From Candidatus Poribacteria bacterium (GTDB taxonomy: Bacteria; Poribacteria; WGA-4E; B28-G17), in NCBI GenBank assembly GCA_021162805.1, contig JAGGXZ010000160.1:1-52637 (forward strand): DNA of 52,637 nt. Direction: 5' to 3'. The notes below the pieces were generated by a model. The model had not been told where the DNA came from. It saw only the letters and a program-made list of their open reading frames with translations, and ran no database searches. The position numbers were made by a program, and so were the translations under genes. Below are positions 21,043 through 32,949 of the stretch, in pieces. Numbering within the stretch: position 1 is the stretch's first letter; each line of letters opens with the position of its first letter.

Positions 21043-21939
21043 CTACGTGGTGGAGATGGCCCTGCCGGAGCGGAACGCCTCGGCGATGGCCCTTGGCACC
21101 TCGGCCTGCGCTTCGGCGACCTTGGCCCTCATCCTCTGCGCCAGTGCCTTCATCTCCTGTTCCCTGGCATGAGCCATGGCCAGTTTCTCCTCAGCCCTTG
21201 CCCTTGCGACGTTCAGATCAGCCTCCGCTCGATCTATCAGGAGCTTGGCGCCGATGTTATCGCCGATATCCACATCAGCTATGTCTATGGAGAGTATCTC
21301 GAAGGCCGTCTCTGCGTCCAACCCCTTTTCGAGCACCGTTTTGGATATGATGTCCGGATTTTCGAGCACGTCCTTGTAGGATTCGGCGGAACCGATGGCG
21401 GTGACTATCCCTTCGCCGACTCTGGCGATTATGGTCTCCTCGCCGGCACCTCCGACGAGTCTATCTATATTCGCCCTGACGGTGATCCGTGTGGTGGCCT
21501 TCACCTGGATACCGTCCTTTGCGACGGCGGTTATCATCGGGGTGGTTATGACCTTGGGCGTCACGCTCATCTGCACCGCCTCGAACACATCCCTGCCCGC
21601 CAGATCTATGGCGGCGGCGCGCTCGAATGTGAGCGGTATCCCGGCCTTATCGGCAGCTATGAGGGCGTTGACGACGTTTCCCACCCTGCCGCCGGCCAGA
21701 TAATGGGCCTCCAGCTTGGGGATGGTCAGATCGAGGCCGGCCTTAGAGGCGCTTATCATCGCCTTAACTATCGTCCCCGGCGGCACCCTCCTTATCCGCA
21801 TCGCCACCAGATCTCTGAAGGGCTTGACCTTCACGCCGGCGAACTTGGCGGCTATCCACAGCGGCACCGGCACCGCCCAGAGGAAGATTACCAGAAAGAG
21901 GATAACGCCTATGAGTATCAAAACTGCGATCGCTGCCAT
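21043..21939 (-). CDS. floA: Flotillin-like protein FloA, second copy (short C-terminus)
   Basis: The 298-residue protein has an N-terminal membrane hairpin segment (about 3-26), then the SPFH-type region with [18 protein letters not shown] and [22 protein letters not shown]. An Ala/Glu-rich coiled coil follows (about 225-285). FloA proteins scaffold membrane microdomains. This copy stops soon after IAEAFRSGR and lacks the roughly 40-residue tail of its neighbour, the first copy at 21953. It is also highly similar to that copy, with a 56-nt identical tract. AAGGAGGG precedes the ATG. Confidence 0.9.
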
Positions 21940-21952
21940 CCTTTTCCCTCCT

Positions 21953-22963
21953 TTAAACCACCGAGTATTCGGTTTTCCTCTCCCCCGCGCCCGGAGCGCT
22001 GCTTTCAGCTATAGCCTTCCGCATCTCGGTATCGGCCATGATGTTTCGCATTCGGTAGTAGTCCATGACGGAGAGTTTGCCCGATCTAAAAGCCTCGGCC
22101 ATCGCCAGGGGTATCTCCGCCTCAGCCTCGATGATCTTGGCCTCCATCTCCTGGGTGAGCGCCTTCATCTCCTGTTCCTCAGCCCTCGCCATCGCGCGAC
22201 GGCTTTCGGCCTTTGCCTGTGCTATGCGCATATCCGCCTCCGCCTGCTCCGTGCGCAGTCTCGCACCGATGTTCTTCCCGACATCCACATCGGCTATGTC
22301 TATGGAGACGATCTCAAAGGCGGTTCCCGCGTCCAAACCTTTCTCCAGGACGGTTTGGGAGATCTTATCCGGATTTTCGAGCACCTCCTCATGTGACTCG
22401 GCCGAACCGATGGTGGTGACTATTCCCTCGCCGACCCGCGCTATGACCGTCTCCTCGCCTGCACCTCCAACCAGCTTGTTTATATCCGCCCTGACCGTCA
22501 CGCGGGCGGTGGCTATTACCTGGACTCCGTTCTTGGCCACAGCCGCTATGGGTGGGGTTTTGATCACCTTCGGGCTGACGCTCATCTGCACCGCCTCCAG
22601 CACATCTCTGCCCGCCAGATCTATGGCGGCGGCGCGCTCGAATGTGAGCGGTATCCCGGCCTTGTCGGCCGATATGAGGGCGTTAACGACCCTTGTGACG
22701 TCCCCTCCTGCCAGATAATGCGCCTCGAGTTTATCCTGATCGAGCATCAGGCCGGCTTTCGCCGCCGTTATCCTGGCGTTAACGATCTCCGATGCCGGCA
22801 CCCTGCGAAGTCTCATAGCTATCAGATCGCCGAATAGCCTGACCTTCACCCCCGCGAACCTCGCCGTTATCCACAGCCCTAAAACCTGAGCGGCCATCAC
22901 AAGGATAACGAGAATCACAACGCCGGCTATAATCCCGATCAATATAATCAGATTGGCTGGCAT
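21953..22963 (-). CDS. floA: Flotillin-like protein FloA, first copy
   Basis: This full-length FloA (336 residues from ATG 22963) organises membrane microdomains. The hydrophobic N-terminus (about 4-27) is followed by the SPFH-type core and an Ala/Glu-rich coiled coil. The C-terminal tail includes [16 protein letters not shown], typical of FloA. ATG 22963 is preferred over GTG 22978 because GAGGTG lies 4 nt upstream and the product then begins [10 protein letters not shown] as in other FloA proteins. A promoter and a 7-bp inverted repeat lie upstream. The second copy follows 13 nt later. Confidence 0.93.
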
Positions 22964-22989
22964 GAAACACCTCATCACCTATGTTATCT

Positions 22990-23064: not shown

Positions 23065-23094
23065 TTGAAATACCGATAGATCCAATGCTATAAT
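23065..23094 (+). promoter_or_regulatory. Promoter of the TPR/TonB envelope operon
   Basis: TTGAAA (23065-23070), an 18-bp spacer and TATAAT (23089-23094), 20 bp before the ATG. An AGGAGGT ribosome site is at 23103-23109. It is the only clear promoter before the seven-gene run to 32949. Confidence 0.7.
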
Positions 23095-23114: not shown

Positions 23115-26100
23115 ATGAGCCGGATGAGAGGTTTGCCCTTTTTATCGAGCATCTTGATACTCCCCTTCGTCGCCATCACGGCCTTTTCGGGCGAACTGGA
23201 GGACTATAAGTTCGCCTATGAGCTCTATAAAAACGGGGCCTATGATCTGGCCGAGAAGAACCTGCTGAAATTCGTCCAGGATTACCCCGAAAGCTCTAAT
23301 GCCGACGATGCCCTGTTTTTGGCTGCCGATTGCGCCTTCAAACTTCATAGATTCCACGACGCCATAAGGTATTACAAACAACTTGAGGCGGATTACCCCT
23401 CCAGCCCGCTGAGGCTCGACGCCGTTCGAGGCGTGGCATTGAGCTGGTTCCAGCTTGGGAGATATGAGGAGGCGATAAAAGGTTTTGAAGAGGTGCTCAA
23501 GAGGGCAAAGGACCCAGCCGTTATCTCCTCATCCCTCTTCTGCATAGGCGAATCTCACTTCAATTTGGGCAATTACGCCAGAGCCGTCTCATATTACGAC
23601 CGGCTCCTGACCAAATATCCCAAGGCCGCTGAGAGGAAATCGGCCCTTTATTCGAAAGGTTGGAGCCTATATCATCTTAAAAGCTACAGGACGGCCTATG
23701 ATACCTTCAGGATGGTTGTCCAGGAGTTTCCCGAAAGCGACGAGGCGGCCGAATCGGCCTACAGGATGGCCGAATGTCTCTTCGCTCTCAAGAAGTGGGA
23801 TAGGGCTGCTGAGGCATATAAGACGGTCATATCCAGATACTCCTCCAAGTCGAAATGGACACAGCTGGTGGCCAACGCCAATTTCAGATTAGGCGAGTGC
23901 TATTTCCAGATGAAGAGAATGGACGAAGCACGCAGACAGTTCGATCTATTGCTACATAGATACCCTACGATGGAGGATGTCGCCGCCGATGCCCAGTTCT
24001 GGATAGCCGAGGTGTTGCTCTCACAGGGCAAGTTCACCGAGGCGATCCACGAGTACAACAAGGTTATAGAGCTCTATCCGACCAGTAAGGTCGTGGATGA
24101 TGCCAGATACGGCATCGCCTTCGCCTATTTCAGACAGGGCGATTATAGGGAGGCTTATAGGCAGTTCAAATTGGTCGCCGAGGACCCGACCTCAGAGCTG
24201 GCTGATGCCGCGAGGTTCTACATGGGGGAATGTCGTAGGATGGACTCTCAGTATAACTCGGCCATACTGGAATATAAGCGCGTCAGCCGCAGATCGGAAT
24301 ACGGGGATGACGCCCTCTTCGGCATAGGTTCCTCATATTATAGCCTGCGCGATTACAAATCCGCCGTATCGGCGTTCAAGGATCTGCTGAAAGTTTACCC
24401 TAAGACCCCGCTTCGGCCGTATGCCCTATTTCAGCTCGGACTGGCCTATTTCAGCGGCGGGGATTATCGTAACGCCGCCGAGACCTTGGAAACCTTTCTG
24501 AAGGAGAACCCGGACGGAATCGGAGCAAAGGCGCCCGCCGACGAGGCGCTCTACTGGCTCGCAAGGGCGAAGTTCGAGATGAAGGAGTATCGAGGGGCGA
24601 TCGATGCCTGTCGGCAGATTATAAACCGGTTTCCCCACAGCCGTTTCCTCTATAAGGCCCATTTCTTCCTGGCGGAGAGCTTGTATTGGCAGGGGGATTA
24701 CGCCGAAGCGCGTAGGGAATATGAAAGCATACTCAATGAGTTCCCGAACGGCGAGTGGAACGATAGATGTCAGTATGGGATCGCATGGACGTATTTCTCC
24801 GAGGGGCAGAGTTCCAGCTCATCCTCTCAGCGCAGGGCTAAATTTCAGGCCGCCCTCAAGGCGTGGAGGAAAGTGGTGGAGACCTATCCTCAAAGCCCTC
24901 TCGCCGATAAATCGCAATACTATGTCGGGATATGTCTGATCAACCTCAAAAGGTACAGGGAGGCGCTGGATGCCTTCAAGATCATCCCACTCAAATATCC
25001 GAAGGGCGATTGGGTGGATAACGCCCTTTACAGGATCGGCTGGGTGCTCTACAAGATGGAGAGATACGATGACGCAATAGAGGCTTTCACCAACCTGCTT
25101 AAAAAGTTCCCATCGACACCTCTGGCGGCACAGGCGATCTTCGGCGTCGCCAACAGCTTCTTCAAAAAGGGCCTTTACAGGGAGGCGATAAAGCAGTATC
25201 AGATCATAGTCACGAAATATCCCAATCAGAAGATGCAGGTCCAGGAGGCAGGCGAGGAGAAGATGGTGGATCTCAGACCGGAGGCTCAGTACGAAATCGC
25301 CGAGTGTTACTATAACCTGGGGGAATACAGAAAGGCGATTGAGAACTACCACAAGCTGGTGGAACTGTTCCCGAAGAGCGAGTGGGCGGATGATGCACTC
25401 TACGCCATAGCCTCATCATATCAACAGCTGAATGACGAGAAGAGGGCCACAGCGGCCTATCAGGAACTCCTGCGCAGGTATCCTCAGAGGGAACTGGCGC
25501 CCGATGCCCTGCTCAACGTCGCCATTTCATATTACGACTCCGGGAACTACCAGCAGGCGATAGCCGAGTTTCAAAAGGTGGTTGAGAACTATCCGCGCTC
25601 CGATGCCGCGGATCAAGCGCAGTATAACATCGGACGTAGCTACTACAAGCTTCGATCCTACGACCAGGCCATAGAGGCCTTCGGCAAGGTGAATCCCAAA
25701 AGCGAATACGGACCGATATCCCGATATTTCATCGGCTGGTGTCTTTATGATCCCAACAATCCGAGAAGGGATCTCAAAAGGGCGATAGACGCTTTCCAGA
25801 AGGTGGTGGCGAGATATCCGAAATCGGACGAGGCCGCCAGGTCCCTGTTGGCCATCGGCAGATGTTATGAGGAGATGGAACAGCTGGATAAAGCCGTTCA
25901 GATATACTCCACCTTGGTCGAGAGATATCCCAAATCGCCGCATATCGAGGCTGCCCTTCTGGCGATGGGTATGGCGCTCCACAAACAGGGCAAAAACGCC
26001 GAGGCCATCTCCGTCTTCGATAGGATATTGAACGATAAGAGAGGACGATACAGCGATGATACGAAGATCTCCGCCCTGCTGAATAAAGCCGAATCGCTTT

Positions 26101-26378
26101 ATGACCTCGGCAGATACGCTCAGGCGGCCGAGACATATCTGAAGATGGCCCTGGTCTATGATCGGATCGACCCGGATGACGCCCTCATCGCCCTCGTTCG
26201 GGCCGGGAACTGCTACGAGAAGCTCCAGAGGTGGGAAGATGCCAAAACCTGGTATAGACGGGCGGTGCAGCAATACTCCAAACATCCCAAGAAACGGAGC
26301 TCCTGGAGTAAGACGCTCAAGCATGCTCGGGATAGATTACGGGCACTGGAGAGCCTCTCCTCCTCATCCCCGAGGTGA
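23115..26378 (+). CDS. Giant exported TPR protein (YbgF/BamD-type repeats)
   Basis: The 1087-residue protein has a signal peptide (about 1-25, ending in TAFSG). It is then filled with some 25 TPR units, most ending in a YP-x-S/K turn followed by a D-A-x-Y/F-x-I/L-G helix, the pattern of periplasmic YbgF/CpoB and BamD repeats. No other domain is visible, so it is probably a long periplasmic superhelix for protein contacts. It heads an operon containing an outer-membrane barrel, ExbB and TonB, which suggests a scaffold role across the periplasm. In Myxococcus-type gliding complexes, large TPR proteins take similar positions; that comparison is inference. Confidence 0.85.
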   Translation: MSRMRGLPFLSSILILPFVAITAFSGELEDYKFAYELYKNGAYDLAEKNLLKFVQDYPESSNADDALFLAADCAFKLHRFHDAIRYYKQLEADYPSSPLRLDAVRGVALSWFQLGRYEEAIKGFEEVLKRAKDPAVISSSLFCIGESHFNLGNYARAVSYYDRLLTKYPKAAERKSALYSKGWSLYHLKSYRTAYDTFRMVVQEFPESDEAAESAYRMAECLFALKKWDRAAEAYKTVISRYSSKSKWTQLVANANFRLGECYFQMKRMDEARRQFDLLLHRYPTMEDVAADAQFWIAEVLLSQGKFTEAIHEYNKVIELYPTSKVVDDARYGIAFAYFRQGDYREAYRQFKLVAEDPTSELADAARFYMGECRRMDSQYNSAILEYKRVSRRSEYGDDALFGIGSSYYSLRDYKSAVSAFKDLLKVYPKTPLRPYALFQLGLAYFSGGDYRNAAETLETFLKENPDGIGAKAPADEALYWLARAKFEMKEYRGAIDACRQIINRFPHSRFLYKAHFFLAESLYWQGDYAEARREYESILNEFPNGEWNDRCQYGIAWTYFSEGQSSSSSSQRRAKFQAALKAWRKVVETYPQSPLADKSQYYVGICLINLKRYREALDAFKIIPLKYPKGDWVDNALYRIGWVLYKMERYDDAIEAFTNLLKKFPSTPLAAQAIFGVANSFFKKGLYREAIKQYQIIVTKYPNQKMQVQEAGEEKMVDLRPEAQYEIAECYYNLGEYRKAIENYHKLVELFPKSEWADDALYAIASSYQQLNDEKRATAAYQELLRRYPQRELAPDALLNVAISYYDSGNYQQAIAEFQKVVENYPRSDAADQAQYNIGRSYYKLRSYDQAIEAFGKVNPKSEYGPISRYFIGWCLYDPNNPRRDLKRAIDAFQKVVARYPKSDEAARSLLAIGRCYEEMEQLDKAVQIYSTLVERYPKSPHIEAALLAMGMALHKQGKNAEAISVFDRILNDKRGRYSDDTKISALLNKAESLYDLGRYAQAAETYLKMALVYDRIDPDDALIALVRAGNCYEKLQRWEDAKTWYRRAVQQYSKHPKKRSSWSKTLKHARDRLRALESLSSSSPR

Positions 26379-26381
26379 TGT

Positions 26382-28004
26382 ATGGTGATCGTGAGAAGGT
26401 TTCTCCTCACGTTAGCTCTCATTATAGGATGGTCTCTGACCTCTTCATTTTCGTTTTCTCAGGAGCAAAATACCGGTGAGAAACTGAAGGCGGAGAATCT
26501 TCCGGAGAGAATCGAGGCGAGGATAATAGATGTGACCAGGATATCGCTCACACAAAGGCCGCCCTTCACCGATAGCGCACTGCCCGATATACCTAAATAC
26601 TTGGTGGTCTATCCCAAAGAGAAGGTATGGAACCTACCCGGTTTCCTCTCGCCCAAGAAAATAACCAGGCGTATAGGAGGCGATCATATCGTTCGTCTCA
26701 TCTCAGCCGATCTGTTCTCAGGAGCGCCGGGGGGATTTAGTTCGGAAGCGATCGCCCTCAAAGAGGTGAAGGACGTAGCTGGCGCCCTGAGGATCAGGTG
26801 GTTTTCACTCGGCAACACCAGGACTAAGGATAGAGGGAGATATAACCTTCTGGATATGTCAGCCCATGGAAGGATAAAAGAGCTCAGCTCCGATCTGAGG
26901 TATGATGTCAAGGAGTTAGGATGGCTTAAAGTCGGAGACAAAGGGGTGGCGAGGCAGGACCTTTCACACCTGAACCTCTACGCCGGTTTGAGACGGAGGA
27001 CGTCGGGAACCACGACGTCAACCTTCAGAATTGAGCTTGATCGAACAACCATGAGCGGAGAATGGGGGATTGAAAATGAAAGCACCGACGTGGGATTTAA
27101 GGTGGATGTGGACACCTCCTATCCGTTCCTCAATCCGATCAAACTCGGATTTTCGGGAAGATACATCTCCTCGCGCCTGGGAGAAACGGAATCCCAGATA
27201 GGTGCTTTCAACATGTATTTCCGCGATAACTTCGAAAGGGTGGGACCTTTTGTCCTCAGCATCGGATTGAACCCCTATCTGTACGGCGAGCCGGATGGGA
27301 GCACGAGGTTCTCCTTAAATCCATCGATGGACGCCGTGACCCTTCTGGGCGAGATCACCCTCTTAAGGTTGAGGGCGGAATGGGGGAGAGTGATTTTGCC
27401 GGCCGGAAATGATATCTTCAGCAGGGATTTTACGGCATTGAACCCGGAGCTCAGGGCCGAGAGGATGAGTGAGATCGCTTGGGGGTTCGAGCTCAGACCT
27501 GAAAACGCCTCGCTTTCCGCCGAGGGATTCTATCTGCTCCGCGATGATATGCACGTGCTCAGTAGGATAAAAGGAGATGTGCTGGCCTGGAGCCCGATAA
27601 ACCTGAACGCGCGGATATTCGGTTTAAGGTTGAACCTGAAGGCTGAACCAGCGGAGGGGGTCGAAGCTCAGGCGAGATATACTCACGAGTTCCACAAGGT
27701 AAGCTCTGCCGAGCATATACCCTATCGCCCTGAGGACAGACTTGAGTGGGAGATCTCCTATGAGACTTCCGCTGGCATGAAGTTGAATCTGGGAGGTGGT
27801 TTCATCGGTAGAAGATATGTGGATAGGGACGGCGATAGGGCTTTAGATGCCTATGCCGTCTTTGATCCCTCTCTGAGTTTCCCCCTGGGGATGGGTATCT
27901 CCGGCTTTCTGCGCGGGAAGTTCTACACCGGCAGGGTGCAGGCCATGGAGGGATATGAATTGCCTCAAACGACGGTCGATTTCGGGGTGAGGGTGAGATT
28001 TTAG
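26382..28004 (+). CDS. TonB-dependent-receptor-like outer-membrane beta-barrel without a plug
   Basis: The 540-residue protein has a signal peptide (about 1-27). An N-terminal stretch of about 100 residues resembles no plug domain I recognise. The rest is amphipathic strands ending in a C-terminal aromatic strand TVDFGVRVRF, the usual outer-membrane signature. Segments such as FELRPENASLSAEGFYLLRDD and LRLNLKAEPAEGVEAQARYTHEF resemble the last strands of TonB-dependent receptors, but the barrel is short. GAGGTGA overlaps the preceding stop. It precedes exbB by 2 nt and probably interacts with the TonB encoded just after. Confidence 0.7.
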   Translation: MVIVRRFLLTLALIIGWSLTSSFSFSQEQNTGEKLKAENLPERIEARIIDVTRISLTQRPPFTDSALPDIPKYLVVYPKEKVWNLPGFLSPKKITRRIGGDHIVRLISADLFSGAPGGFSSEAIALKEVKDVAGALRIRWFSLGNTRTKDRGRYNLLDMSAHGRIKELSSDLRYDVKELGWLKVGDKGVARQDLSHLNLYAGLRRRTSGTTTSTFRIELDRTTMSGEWGIENESTDVGFKVDVDTSYPFLNPIKLGFSGRYISSRLGETESQIGAFNMYFRDNFERVGPFVLSIGLNPYLYGEPDGSTRFSLNPSMDAVTLLGEITLLRLRAEWGRVILPAGNDIFSRDFTALNPELRAERMSEIAWGFELRPENASLSAEGFYLLRDDMHVLSRIKGDVLAWSPINLNARIFGLRLNLKAEPAEGVEAQARYTHEFHKVSSAEHIPYRPEDRLEWEISYETSAGMKLNLGGGFIGRRYVDRDGDRALDAYAVFDPSLSFPLGMGISGFLRGKFYTGRVQAMEGYELPQTTVDFGVRVRF

Positions 28005-28006
28005 CC

Positions 28007-28696
28007 ATGAACGGAATAATTGAGATGATCCGGGGTGGGCTGGAGCAGATAATAAATGCCGGATGGCTTATGGCGGTGATCGGCGTTTACTCGATGATCT
28101 CGCATGCCGTGATCCTGGAGAGGGCGATCAATTTGAGACGAAGCAAATTGATCCCGGCCCAGTTCATAGCCAGGATATATAACGTGCTTGAAAGGGGTAG
28201 TCCGGAGATAGCGATAGCGTTATGCGATAAAAGGCCTGGCCCCTTGACTAACATCATCAAAGCCGGTATAATACATCGACACTACGATGAGGAGAGGCTT
28301 AAGAAGGTCGTCCACTTCGCCGGGCTCCAGGAGAAACCGAAGATCGAGAGGTATCTCTCTCTGCTGGGCGTCATTCCGCCGCTCGCCACATATACGGGAC
28401 TGTTGGGCACGGTTATCGGGATGATCCGCTCCTTCGGGGCGCTGGGGATGATGGACATATCGATCAATGCCGAGGTCAATATGGCTAAAGGTATATCTCA
28501 ATCCCTCATGACCACGGCCGCGGGGTTGGTGGTGGCCCTTCCGGCCTTCATAGCTCATCAGTATTTCTCAAACCGTGCCGATTCTATCCTGCGCGAGATG
28601 GAGAGACATTCGATGTCGCTGGTTAAGTTCCTCGTGTCGGCTGAAGCCAAATTCTTGGGAGAGTTCGAGGAGATAGGGGGGGATGAAGATGTTTAA
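28007..28696 (+). CDS. exbB: MotA/TolQ/ExbB-family proton channel protein
   Basis: The 229-residue inner-membrane protein has three predicted transmembrane segments: about residues 17-35, 118-140 (LLGVIPPLATYTGLLGTVIG) and 160-183 (TTAAGLVVALPAFIAHQYF). The middle and last ones match the ExbB/TolQ pore helices, and G-L-L-G-T-V-x-G-M is the family signature. Such proteins convert proton flow into force with an ExbD/TolR partner. Here tonB follows directly with a 14-nt overlap, so no exbD lies between. Confidence 0.9.
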   Translation: MNGIIEMIRGGLEQIINAGWLMAVIGVYSMISHAVILERAINLRRSKLIPAQFIARIYNVLERGSPEIAIALCDKRPGPLTNIIKAGIIHRHYDEERLKKVVHFAGLQEKPKIERYLSLLGVIPPLATYTGLLGTVIGMIRSFGALGMMDISINAEVNMAKGISQSLMTTAAGLVVALPAFIAHQYFSNRADSILREMERHSMSLVKFLVSAEAKFLGEFEEIGGDEDV

Positions 28697-29537
28697 ATGG
28701 AGTCTAAAGACGTGTCTGTTTATAGCCTTCATCGAGCATATCCTTCTTACCATTGTCTTCGCCATGGTCATATACACCAAACCGGCGGAGAGGGAGGAGT
28801 TCGAGAGGCCGATAGAGGTGGATATCATCCAGCTTCCCCAGATGCCGGAGAGGTTGGAGATGACTCAGTTCCAATCCCTCCAAAAGGTGACCGCTGAAAC
28901 GCCGGAGAAGATACCGGAATTCAAGGGCAGAGATGTGATAAACAGGGTTCTGGGATCGGTGGAAGGAGATCAGAGGTTCAGAACGAGGTTGCGTTCGCCC
29001 GCCTCCGAGCTCAATCCCGATCGGTTCACGCTCGATCTCTCACGATCGCGGCGGGCCATGGAGGGGATCGAGCGAGGAGCAGATACGACGTTGAAGGTTA
29101 AAGAGATCCTATCGCCCGATAGGGAGAGGATACCGATTCCCAGACGGTCCGAGGGCGGAGAGAGCAGGATAAGCATGAGCCCTCCTCGGGGAAGCTTCAC
29201 GACCCGTATCTCCCAACCTTCTTCCCTGAGCCCGAAGGTCGGGGAGCCCGCCGGATTGCCGTTCGAGATCAGAGGGGAGGTGATCGGAAGGGAACTGGTC
29301 TACATGCCGCCTATACCCGAAGCGCCCAGCAAGGAGGTCGGAGAGGTGGTTCTAACCTTCTGGGTAACTCCTCAGGGTGACGTGTATAAGGTGCAGCGTA
29401 AGAAGACGGCGGGTGACCCGAAGCTTGAAAGGATAGCCAGGGAATGGGTGAGCAGGTTGAAATTCGCCCCCCTGGAGGGACGGGTTGAGCAAAAACCCCA
29501 ATGGGGTGAGATAACCATCAAATTTTTAAGAAAATAA
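28683..29537 (+). CDS. tonB: TonB-family energy transducer
   Basis: The 284-residue protein has a single N-terminal membrane anchor (about residues 7-31) and a long periplasmic linker rich in Arg, Ser, Pro and Glu without the classic EP/KP repeats. A C-terminal TonB domain follows (about 205-284), including GEVVLTFWVTPQGDV and REWVSRLKFAPL. It transfers force from the ExbB-type motor to an outer-membrane partner, probably the barrel encoded at 26382. An alternative ATG lies 6 nt downstream. The linker is unusual and would be worth comparing with TolA and GltG-like proteins. Confidence 0.85.
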   Translation: MKMFKWSLKTCLFIAFIEHILLTIVFAMVIYTKPAEREEFERPIEVDIIQLPQMPERLEMTQFQSLQKVTAETPEKIPEFKGRDVINRVLGSVEGDQRFRTRLRSPASELNPDRFTLDLSRSRRAMEGIERGADTTLKVKEILSPDRERIPIPRRSEGGESRISMSPPRGSFTTRISQPSSLSPKVGEPAGLPFEIRGEVIGRELVYMPPIPEAPSKEVGEVVLTFWVTPQGDVYKVQRKKTAGDPKLERIAREWVSRLKFAPLEGRVEQKPQWGEITIKFLRK

Positions 29538-29558
29538 GACAAAAGGAGGAATCCAGAG

Positions 29559-30809
29559 ATGTCCCGAAGAATTCTTCTCATTCTGATCCTCGCTTTCGGG
29601 GTGATCCTTTACGGGTGTTCGATGAAAGGGGCTATATTCCAGAACGCCGAAAATGCCTTCGATCGCGGGGATTATGCTGAGGCAAAGAAGCTTTACACCG
29701 AGGTAATACGGAAATATCCCGGCTCCGAGTTCGCCACGAAAGCCAAATTCAGGCTCGCTCAGATCTGTGAAAAGGAATACGATTGGGATAACGCACTCAA
29801 ATACTATGAGCAGGTTACGAAGGAGGTCAAAGGGGGATATCTGGACGCTCAGTCCAGAAGCAGGATGGCCCTCATCAGAAAGGCCCGTCAGGATATAGCC
29901 AAGGCCAAATACATATACGATAACAACCCCGGCAGCGAGAGGGGAAACAGAGCCGCCGCTCAGGCGCTTTACGATATGGCTCAGGCCTACGAAAGGCTGG
30001 GCCAGTATGAAAAAGCCATCGAGACATACGAGAAACTGCTGAAGGAGTTCCCGAAATACAAAAACGCAGATCAGGTGCAGTATCAGATCGGGATGATATA
30101 TTTCTACAAGCTATATGACTACGGAAAAGGATGGAAAGCCTTCATGAAGGTCATCAAGAACTACCCGGATTCGGATCTCGCCAAGGCTTCCGACAGATTG
30201 TTGAAGAAGACGCAGAACACGTTGAACGAGATAGCGGCGTTGATAGAGGACGTCAAGAAGATCCGAAACGAGGTGGCGATGAAGTTCGAAAAGATGGGAC
30301 GACATGTGAGCCAGGCCGATAAATACAGCATCCACGCCGAAAAGGCCGCTCAGGACTACATCGGAATCGCCGAGGGATGGAAGAAACTCAAGAACTATCC
30401 CAACGCCATAAAGGCCTATAAGGAACTGGCTGACGAGATCCCGTTCGGACAGTGGGCTCCGAACGCCCTGTTTAACGCGGCGAAGCTGTATCAGGAGATG
30501 GGCGATTACGAGATGGCCGTCAAGACCTATGAAGAGCTCTTTAAGAGATACCCCCACTCCTTCAGAAGAAACGACGCGATATACAACGAGGCGATATGCT
30601 ACGAGGCGATGCGTGAGTTCGCTAAGGCCTATGACCTGTATAAAACCTATATCTCCCTCGATGACACCGATGAGAACAAGCTCAGAAGGGCTGAGGAGAA
30701 GGTGGCACAGTGGGGATATGATGAGGACGGAGACGGATTCCCCTTCTATATGGAGGCGCAATACGGAACCTCCGATAAGGACCCAACCTCGTATCCGGAG
30801 AAAAAATAA
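29559..30809 (+). CDS. TPR lipoprotein with C-terminal calcium-binding-like motif
   Basis: This 416-residue lipoprotein has a lipobox LYGC with C20 as the probable anchor. It has TPR units at about 25-95 and 130-215, a helical linker (about 215-265), and more TPR units (about 270-385). The C-terminus carries YDEDGDGFPFYMEAQYGTS, like the D-x-D-x-D-G calcium-binding (thrombospondin type 3) motif of surface-anchored proteins. AAGGAGG lies 9 nt before the ATG. In the operon it probably acts as a CpoB/YbgF-like or GltE-like lipoprotein beside TonB. Exact role unknown. Confidence 0.8.
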   Translation: MSRRILLILILAFGVILYGCSMKGAIFQNAENAFDRGDYAEAKKLYTEVIRKYPGSEFATKAKFRLAQICEKEYDWDNALKYYEQVTKEVKGGYLDAQSRSRMALIRKARQDIAKAKYIYDNNPGSERGNRAAAQALYDMAQAYERLGQYEKAIETYEKLLKEFPKYKNADQVQYQIGMIYFYKLYDYGKGWKAFMKVIKNYPDSDLAKASDRLLKKTQNTLNEIAALIEDVKKIRNEVAMKFEKMGRHVSQADKYSIHAEKAAQDYIGIAEGWKKLKNYPNAIKAYKELADEIPFGQWAPNALFNAAKLYQEMGDYEMAVKTYEELFKRYPHSFRRNDAIYNEAICYEAMREFAKAYDLYKTYISLDDTDENKLRRAEEKVAQWGYDEDGDGFPFYMEAQYGTSDKDPTSYPEKK

Positions 30810-30821
30810 ATTTATATTGAA

Positions 30822-30843
30822 GGGGCGGCACACGTGTCGCCCC
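30822..30843. repeat. 22-bp near-palindrome between operon genes
   Basis: GGGGCG (30822-30827) pairs with CGCCCC (30838-30843), and the inner bases continue the stem with one G-U pair to a 2-nt loop. It starts 12 nt after the TPR lipoprotein stop and lies 19 nt before the next ATG. It has no T-run, so it may be an attenuator, processing site or protein-binding palindrome. Confidence 0.5.
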
Positions 30844-30862
30844 AATCCCAGATCTTTCGGAT

Positions 30863-31288
30863 ATGATCTTAAGATATCTCATCCCAACCCTTATGATTCC
30901 GCTTTTATCCCTGACCTCCTGCTCCTACATGAGAGGTCCATCCCCTGCCGTGATGTCCGACGCCCGAATGGAAATAGCCCTTGCTGAGCAGGTGGATGCC
31001 TCTACCTTCGCCTCAAGGGAGATTGATGAGGCGAGGATACTCCTCTCACAGGCCGAGAGGGCGGCAAGAAGGGGAGATGAGAAGGAAGCTGAACGCCTGG
31101 CGGAGAGGGCGCTTCTGACGGCGAGATACGCCAGAATTCTGGCCTCTTACAGAAAGCTGAAAAAAGAGGTCGAAAGGGAGGAGATCGAGCTTCAAACCCT
31201 ACAGAGGGAGGTTGAATCCGCTAAGGTCAAACGTCAATCGGCCGAGGTCGAGCTGAGGAGATTGACCAGGGGGGGAGGTGGAAAATGA
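30863..31288 (+). CDS. DUF4398-like small helical lipoprotein
   Basis: The 141-residue product has a signal peptide ending LTSC, with C20 as the probable lipidation site. The mature part (about 30-135) is a long alpha-helical, Ala/Glu/Arg-rich region (LAEQVDASTFASREIDEAR, LLSQAERAARRGDEKEAER) matching DUF4398-type lipoproteins. These often sit beside OmpA-family genes. It overlaps the next gene (ATGA), which carries the same helical module fused to OmpA. No strong ribosome site is visible. Confidence 0.8.
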   Translation: MILRYLIPTLMIPLLSLTSCSYMRGPSPAVMSDARMEIALAEQVDASTFASREIDEARILLSQAERAARRGDEKEAERLAERALLTARYARILASYRKLKKEVEREEIELQTLQREVESAKVKRQSAEVELRRLTRGGGGK

Positions 31289-32949
31289 GATCCCGCCTCC
31301 TGGTCCTTTTGCTTCCCGCCCTTATAGCAGGATGTGCCGCCAGAATCAACCCCGTGATGATTCAGAGATCGATCTCCGACGCACAATCGGCCCTGAAAGA
31401 GGCGGAGGATGCCGGCGCATCGGAGTACGCCTACGCCGAATACACCAGAGCGAAACAGTTCCTGGATGAAGCTCTCAAGACCTCAGATCCCGTCCGCAGG
31501 CTCGATCTGGCGCGGAAAGCCTCTCTACACGCCAAAATCGCGGAGGCGAAATCGAGATATCTCTCAGCTCAAGAGAGGCTGGACGGGATCAAATCCGAAA
31601 GGGTGAAGCTGCTCATAGATAAGATGGCTGAACAGGTGGCGGAAGCCCAGGCAAGGCGATCTATAGCCGAATACAAAATGCGAAAGGCGGAAGAACGGGC
31701 CAGGATCGCCCAGGAGGAGGCCGCCGAGGCGGAAGCTAAAGCAGAGGCCGCTCAGAGGGAGATGCTCAGGAGGATCGCCCAGGGTAAGGCGGAGCTTGCC
31801 ATTGCCAAAGCCGAGCTGGCTCAGGGGGTGGCTCAGGATGTAGGAGCTGAGAGATATGCCGCGGATCTCTACGGCCAGGCATCCGTCAAATTGGATGCCG
31901 CCAAAGAAGCTCTGGCCTCGGAGAGGTTCGATGACGCTGTAAAGTTCGCCTCTGAGGCGGAGGCGAAGTTCAAGGAGGCGAGAAACTCGGCAATGACCCT
32001 CGCAAAGGCGCAAAAACGCAAGGTCGAACTCTCACAACAGCAGCTATACTCTGAAGCCTTCGCCTCGATCGGCAGGGCAGAGCTGTTGCTTCAAATGGCC
32101 CGATCCTTCAACGTCCAGAAATTCGCGCCGCAAAAGCTCAAAGATGCTCGACTGAAGCTCGATAAGGCGAAAAAGGCGATCTCAGAAAGAAAATACGATG
32201 AGGCGAGAAATATCGCCCTCGAGGCGGAGAAATCGGCGCTCGCCGCACAAAAATTGGCCCAGATCAGGTGGAGGGAGGAACAGATAAGCCTTTCAGGCGA
32301 GGAGCTCGAAGCCTTGGCGAAGGACGCCGTGTTCAAAGCCAAAACGTCGATGGACGAAAATCCGGATTTGAAGAAACTGAGCCCGGATCTATATCGAGCC
32401 GCTGATGATCTCCTCTCTCAGGCTGAAAAGGCGATCGAGGAACGGGATTATCAATCCGCCCTGGTCTTCGGATCTCAGGCTGCCGCTCTCATCGAAAACG
32501 CCAGGAGGAGATGGACGGAGCTGGAGAAGAAGGAGTCGGAGATGATCTCAAAGCTCTCCAAAATCGATAGATTCCAGGTTCTAAGGGATTCAAAGGGCAT
32601 CCTGGTCAGGATAAGCGGAGACCTGTTCGCCCCCGGTGGAAGCAATATCAACTCGAAATACAGGGGATCTCTCAGGAAACTGGCGGAGGTTCTCAAGGGA
32701 TATCCTCAGTTTACGGTTCTGATCGAAGGCCATACCGACAGCATAGGAGAAGCCGAGGATAACCTCAAGCTCTCCATCGCAAGGGCGGTGAAGTTCAGGG
32801 ATTTCTTGGTTAAACAGGGGGTCGAGGGCCCAAGGCTGATACCCATCGGCTACGGAGAATCCAGACCGATAGCTTCTAACATAAACGAGGCCGGACGGAG
32901 GAAAAACAGAAGGATAGACCTCATAATCCTCACCCGCTCTTCGCTTTGA
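31285..32949 (+). CDS. OmpA/Pal-type lipoprotein with DUF4398-like helical repeats
   Basis: The 554-residue protein has a lipobox LIAGC (C17). It has a long helical, Ala/Lys/Glu-rich region (about 25-420) made of repeated DUF4398-like helix pairs. The C-terminal OmpA-like peptidoglycan-binding domain (about 435-550) has VLIEGHTDSIGEAEDN, LSIARAVKFRDFLVKQGV and NEAGRRKNRRIDL. It would tether the outer membrane to peptidoglycan, as Pal does in the Tol-Pal system. It ends the operon, and its last 20 nt overlap the convergent M48 protease gene. Confidence 0.88.
   Translation: MRSRLLVLLLPALIAGCAARINPVMIQRSISDAQSALKEAEDAGASEYAYAEYTRAKQFLDEALKTSDPVRRLDLARKASLHAKIAEAKSRYLSAQERLDGIKSERVKLLIDKMAEQVAEAQARRSIAEYKMRKAEERARIAQEEAAEAEAKAEAAQREMLRRIAQGKAELAIAKAELAQGVAQDVGAERYAADLYGQASVKLDAAKEALASERFDDAVKFASEAEAKFKEARNSAMTLAKAQKRKVELSQQQLYSEAFASIGRAELLLQMARSFNVQKFAPQKLKDARLKLDKAKKAISERKYDEARNIALEAEKSALAAQKLAQIRWREEQISLSGEELEALAKDAVFKAKTSMDENPDLKKLSPDLYRAADDLLSQAEKAIEERDYQSALVFGSQAAALIENARRRWTELEKKESEMISKLSKIDRFQVLRDSKGILVRISGDLFAPGGSNINSKYRGSLRKLAEVLKGYPQFTVLIEGHTDSIGEAEDNLKLSIARAVKFRDFLVKQGVEGPRLIPIGYGESRPIASNINEAGRRKNRRIDLIILTRSSL

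Follow-up and report, generated by a model that had tools for sequence, protein, structure and literature searches.

Seven consecutive plus-strand genes at positions 23115-32949 of contig JAGGXZ010000160.1 (Candidatus Poribacteria bacterium, assembly GCA_021162805.1) combine motor, transducer, barrel and lipoprotein genes, and the question they raise is to which kind of envelope machine they belong. The original prediction, made from the window (the whole analysed stretch of 52,637 nucleotides), likened them to Tol-Pal or to a gliding-type apparatus and suggested a distinct motor-driven envelope complex. We compared 85 Poribacterial genomes from families f1 to f10, in which the genome of the window is G000. 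We interpret the locus as a dedicated Ton-type energy-transducing machine with a rewired TonB-ExbB contact, which likely borrows its ExbD and would act on an assembly of TPR (tetratricopeptide repeat) proteins and a barrel; we assign this interpretation a probability of about 0.5. Because exbD has been lost and the contact between motor and force arm is altered, the locus appears to encode an unusual Ton variant and neither a Tol-Pal nor a gliding machine.

The seven reading frames succeed one another at intervals of 3, 2, -14, 21, 53 and -4 bp and have Pfam matches, in gene order, to TPR, the TonB-dependent-receptor barrel, MotA_ExbB, TonB_C, TPR, DUF4398, and twice DUF4398 together with OmpA. 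The first gene (23115-26378) encodes a giant periplasmic TPR solenoid protein of 1087 aa with a Sec-type signal and no lipobox, the second (26382-28004) a TonB-receptor-like beta-barrel of 540 aa without a plug, and the third (28007-28696) an ExbB/TolQ-type channel subunit of 229 aa (PF01618, 89.6 bits), which aligns with TolQ and ExbB structures and whose best relatives, among named genomes, are encoded on contigs of Candidatus Poribacteria. Directly after exbB follow the gene of a TonB-type transducer (28683-29537, 284 aa; PF03544/TIGR01352) and that of a TPR lipoprotein (29559-30809, 416 aa) with the lipobox LYGC. The DUF4398 lipoprotein (30863-31288, 141 aa) and the DUF4398/OmpA lipoprotein (31285-32949, 554 aa) complete the row, and the lipobox motifs LTSC and IAGC are likewise visible in the sequence. 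The predicted gene inventory thus agrees with coordinates, near-abutting gaps and domains; what it overlooked is that ExbD is absent and that the interface between TonB and ExbB is altered.

A conserved core without exbD

The order TPR protein (about 1100 aa), barrel, ExbB, TonB is found on one strand in nearly every sampled locus of eight families (f1, f2, f4-f7, f9 and f10), two of which belong to other classes. Gaps within the core are mostly shorter than 100 bp, and the next gene after tonB is usually the TPR lipoprotein, whose homologue adjoins tonB in most loci. In clade f3 (six genomes, G005-G010, some of them incomplete) core parts are present in five of the six, several with their genes on separate contigs. 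The whole core was not found in the 59 genomes of family f8 (G026-G084), which retain plugged receptors, other TonBs, ExbDs and the OmpA lipoprotein despite its absence. In G004 a DUF4058-type gene, its family assigned by reading the sequence, stands between exbB and tonB (L073:2632-3432).

The last two genes behave differently. Every one of the 85 genomes, f8 included, has a DUF4398-OmpA pair or a relative of the OmpA protein of that pair, but only G000 and G002 have it directly beside the core, and in G014 and G015 it lies within about 6 kb. In G001 the DUF4398 gene alone adjoins the core and the contig ends there, and in the single-contig genome G022 the pair is 2.7 Mb away. Since linkage is rare although the pair is universal, the conserved core consists of five genes, not seven: the TPR protein, the barrel, ExbB, TonB and the TPR lipoprotein. 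Their neighbourhood is beyond chance, and the linkage of DUF4398-OmpA to them is old but not required. The gene order expected from the window was accordingly recovered for TPR-barrel-ExbB-TonB, whereas its extension to DUF4398-OmpA usually lies elsewhere.

This distribution bears directly on the Tol-Pal comparison. Under that reading the locus would be a diverged Tol-Pal system serving outer-membrane attachment and constriction at division, with the TPR lipoprotein as CpoB and the OmpA lipoprotein as Pal. Both systems have a TolQ-like channel, a TPR lipoprotein and an OmpA lipoprotein nearby. Moreover, comparisons with NCBIfam and PDB place the window's ExbB slightly nearer to TolQ than to ExbB proteins, the TPR lipoprotein scores above the threshold of the YbgF model, a gene close by encodes an OmpA peptidoglycan-binding domain, and by the TolB test the phylum has no other Tol-Pal. 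However, the YbgF model is generic for TPRs and also matches the 1087-aa protein, and Tol-Pal has neither a barrel of the TonB-receptor type nor a giant TPR protein. TolB_N is absent from 84 of the 85 genomes (the E. coli control was positive), the locus has no TolR, and the gene of the Pal-like OmpA lipoprotein lies apart from the motor genes in most genomes and occurs even in f8, where the motor is missing. On these grounds the Tol-Pal assignment was rejected, and we regard a diverged Tol-Pal as quite unlikely.

None of the Poribacterial loci read has an ExbD or TolR gene within the core, tonB standing directly after exbB. The window's genome has two ExbDs, both beside another ExbB on contig C17, and two are present in most Poribacterial genomes with the core; in G022 both lie near 0.67 Mb and the core at 2.43 Mb. 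Outside the phylum exbD adjoins exbB for 12 of the 12 ExbBs read, mostly in the order exbB-exbD-tonB. Two such loci have the full order TPR-barrel-ExbB-ExbD-TonB with a barrel homologous to that of the window (L149, hidden Markov model match 6.7e-18; L136, hhalign 97.9%, E 3.8e-13), and further ones combine TPR, outer-membrane protein, ExbB, ExbD and TonB with an unrelated or diverged outer-membrane protein; L144 and L152, also from other phyla, have barrels for which homology to the window's barrel was not demonstrable. The ancestral operon most likely carried exbD, as in other phyla, and would have lost it en route to Poribacteria. ExbD is then most likely supplied in trans from a phylum-wide ExbB-ExbD-ExbD operon, because the TonB strand that would receive it and the threonine ring of ExbB are both kept.

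This second trans-envelope operon (L069:8482-13831, minus strand of contig C17 in G000) was seen at all the other Poribacterial ExbB loci read, with the exception of L104. It encodes a lipobox protein of more than 1000 aa, an ExbB that includes a carboxypeptidase-regulatory domain and, in most cases, two ExbDs that differ from each other. Its large protein (1068 aa) has no Pfam match, contains the acidic stretch DDDDDDDWPDD and shows 52-55% identity across families, including f8.

The contact between TonB and ExbB

TonB Ser16 and His20, ExbB Ser34 and Trp38 and helix prolines have been described as a conserved network linking transducer and channel (PMC12215075), and ExbD has been reported to bind TonB at the D-box, a strand in which hydrophobic and polar residues alternate between flanking prolines (PMC10907165). 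In the window the TonB_C domain is present and the membrane helix keeps the His, the Ser is mostly Ala among relatives, and a Glu has been added: Glu18-His19 (28734-28739) correspond to Ile19-His20 of E. coli. A Glu right before the conserved His was found in 19 genomes and is invariant in 16 aligned TonBs. Of 20 further Poribacterial TonBs whose helix is readable, 19 have the canonical SxxxH and none an acid at this position; the TonBs of clusters outside the phylum are canonical as well.

The channel has changed along with the transducer. HMMER alignments to solved structures equate ExbB positions 33 and 128 with TolQ Trp32 (Trp38 of E. coli ExbB) and with the conserved pore-helix Pro (TolQ Pro138). 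Position 33 (codon 28103-28105) is His in 19 of 19 Glu-type systems vs none of 23 comparison ExbBs, and the Pro at position 128 (codon 28388-28390, Thr in the window) is lost in all 19, vs kept in 22 of the 23. Both ring threonines are conserved. The contact network thus appears to have been replaced as a set, comprising TonB Ala15, Glu18 and His19, ExbB Ser29 and His33, and the change from Pro to Thr128. Downstream of the helix, TonB has a D-box-type strand, P-IEVDIIQ-LP (IEVDIIQ at 28812-28832), whose pattern is kept in relatives; a similar strand is found in both f3 TonBs read. In families f9 and f10 the TonBs (L085:8719-9987, L087:8525-9778) are longer at the N-terminus by about 130 residues, a region in which several membrane helices are predicted to precede the Glu-His helix.

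Two explanations of these changes have to be weighed. According to the first, the motor consists of two proteins: the TonB helix would enter the ExbB pore with its Glu and take over the proton role of the ExbD Asp, so that the motor itself is the force arm. The invariant Glu and the retained ring threonines are consistent with this possibility, as is the loss of the pore-helix Pro together with ExbD, and exbD is missing from the operon though homologous loci elsewhere carry it. A precedent is provided by TolQ-like/TPH-vWA pairs (PMC12204202), which share with the locus a TolQ-type gene with a single-helix partner and no TolR or ExbD gene, the partner's own helix carrying the Asp. That partner, however, has a vWA domain, a pore Asp and no His motif, in contrast to the TonB of the locus, which has TonB_C and keeps both His and D-box. 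The D-box would be a binding site for ExbD, both a local ExbD and the Glu are missing from clade f3, and the TonB helix is far less conserved than the ExbD pore helix (mean identity 0.44 vs 0.70). Furthermore, TonB retains the His equivalent to E. coli His20, and the new His of ExbB lies exactly at the peripheral contact site; together they would place the Glu at the periphery. We downgraded the proton-carrier role of the Glu because the D-box is kept, because the ExbB change lies at the TonB contact and not in the pore, and because f3 lacks both ExbD and Glu. A two-protein motor is therefore doubtful, and its elaborated form, in which a TonB with proton-binding Glu18 is rotor element and force arm at once and drives the unplugged barrel via a TPR scaffold, is more doubtful still.

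The second explanation, a borrowed ExbD with the Glu serving the contact between TonB and ExbB, is favoured by the retained D-box and ring threonines and by f3, which manages without local ExbD and without Glu; a motor that does without ExbD is possible, though less probable. The inner-membrane part would then be an ExbB pentamer with its own TonB. Poribacterial genomes have 3-20 plugged receptors each and other TonBs, one of which adjoins a receptor on contig C25, so the TonB of the locus is an extra and probably dedicated one. The rewired contact most likely results in an exclusive ExbB-TonB pairing that is insulated from the other TonBs of the genome. The pair is distinct from these TonBs, and together with the conserved core order and the plug-less barrel this upholds the predicted distinct motor-driven complex.

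Several observations weigh against the Ton-type machine with a borrowed ExbD. Supply in trans, most likely as it is, is deduced from sequence, and the loss of the pore-helix Pro would be odd if an ordinary ExbD dimer still occupied the pore. In the Glu-type TonB helix the conserved Phe, Ala, Glu and His share one face, at 180-280 degrees, but with a value of 0.2 the conservation moment is weak. The ExbB tree unites the Poribacterial cluster ExbBs in a single clade, and monophyly of the Glu type is not settled by it; the co-variation counts are consequently not independent, and about two events may suffice to explain them. The Glu type may have arisen by one gain with one concerted reversal in f3, or by two gains. 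Five of the six f3 genomes have parts of the system with canonical residues, several on separate contigs. Finally, we infer the contact between TonB and barrel, and the stretch discussed below as a possible Ton box has a resemblance to one and nothing further.

The outer-membrane side

The barrel has no plug domain, neither as a Pfam match (only PF00593 was found) nor in the predicted structure, as had been anticipated. The AlphaFold2 model (pLDDT 80, pTM 0.71) has about 22 strands and a low-confidence, mostly unstructured N-terminal stretch (residues 20-103), and its top PDB fold matches are FrpB, BtuB and other TonB-dependent transporters. A plug and homology to known siderophore receptors had been named as signs of a chance cluster; the former is missing, but the barrel does match TonB-dependent receptors. 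Close to the mature N-terminus a conserved stretch, IIDTTxIxL, may be a Ton box.

An open barrel of 22 strands would have to be gated, and the obvious candidate for this is the giant TPR protein encoded next to it, in which 17 TPR_6 stretches pass the threshold. TonB would span the periplasm and act on plug-less barrel, TPR solenoid and TPR lipoprotein; the TPR proteins might gate or fill the open barrel, and pulling by TonB might move a large substrate through it or remodel it. The TPR lipoprotein has a C-terminal calcium-type (thrombospondin-3-like) motif (30720-30797), DEDGDGFPFYMEAQYGTSDKDP, as noted in the original prediction; it is conserved across the phylum and kept in relatives whose complete C-terminus is on the contig. 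G008 has a TPR lipoprotein with this motif in two tandem copies (L095:6504-9492).

The receptor fold of the barrel also suits another possibility, an ordinary nutrient-uptake Ton system in which the barrel is incidentally plug-less and the TPR proteins are scaffolds. The locus shares with Ton systems an ExbB channel, a TonB with its C-terminal domain, the D-box strand and a TonB-receptor-type barrel. TPR proteins in a Ton operon are also known from Vibrio TonB2-type systems (TtpB2, TtpC2, ExbB2, ExbD2, TonB2, TtpD2), for which TtpD2, a TPR protein of 425 aa, is required (PMC6957404). Those systems, however, have ExbD and TtpC and serve siderophore uptake. The locus differs from Ton systems in general by an operon without exbD, the plug-less barrel, the giant TPR protein, the Glu in the TonB helix, ExbB His33 and the missing pore-helix Pro. 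A TPR protein of 1087 aa and the absence of a plug are atypical of uptake receptors, and each genome already has its plugged receptors and other TonBs. Ordinary uptake is therefore unlikely.

A gliding or cell-surface motility machine of the Glt/Agl type would likewise combine a TolQ-type channel, a TonB-like protein, TPR proteins and a barrel, and in Myxococcus the likeness is limited to such part types. Among the seven window proteins the GltC model reached 64.8 bits against a cut-off of 450 and the GltE model 30.1 against 225, no other Glt protein was matched, and the locus contains no AglQRS set. The gliding assignment is unsupported by these scores and highly improbable. Type IX secretion combines the TPR protein PorW/SprE with a GldLM motor and the SprA barrel; of these, the PorW/SprE model scored 185 bits on the window proteins against a cut-off of 250, a generic TPR match.

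Flanking elements and bearing on the Ton motor

The best plus-strand promoter-like match, TTGAAA-18-TATAAT with an extended TG (23065-23094, plus strand, 11 of 12 positions), sits directly 5' of the ATG at 23115, where a promoter had been predicted; it is a consensus match only. Between the core and the DUF4398 gene, 5' of the latter, lies a plus-strand hairpin (30822-30843), a 22-nt near-palindrome, GGGGCGGCACACGTGTCGCCCC, that occurs once in the window and has a folding energy of -21.5 kcal/mol over a 71-nt stretch (z -3.0). Two tandem FloA flotillin-like genes (21043-22978, minus strand) are located divergently upstream of the core; in the relatives' loci read none was matched adjoining the core, and no dedicated search was made in relatives.

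The locus points to a TPR-barrel-Ton type of operon in several phyla, of which we found no prior description; nor did the literature searched, with most subscription papers outside reach, describe a Ton system without ExbD or a TPR-linked barrel that lacks a plug. Its wider interest lies in an open question of the Ton and Tol motors, namely how force is transferred from the channel to TonB or TolA. The recently described residues that link the two appear here to have been swapped as a set in nature, and f3 offers a comparison with canonical residues. Owing to this natural set-wise replacement and the canonical state in f3, the network would be testable by residue swaps in the ExbB-TonB pair of E. 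coli.

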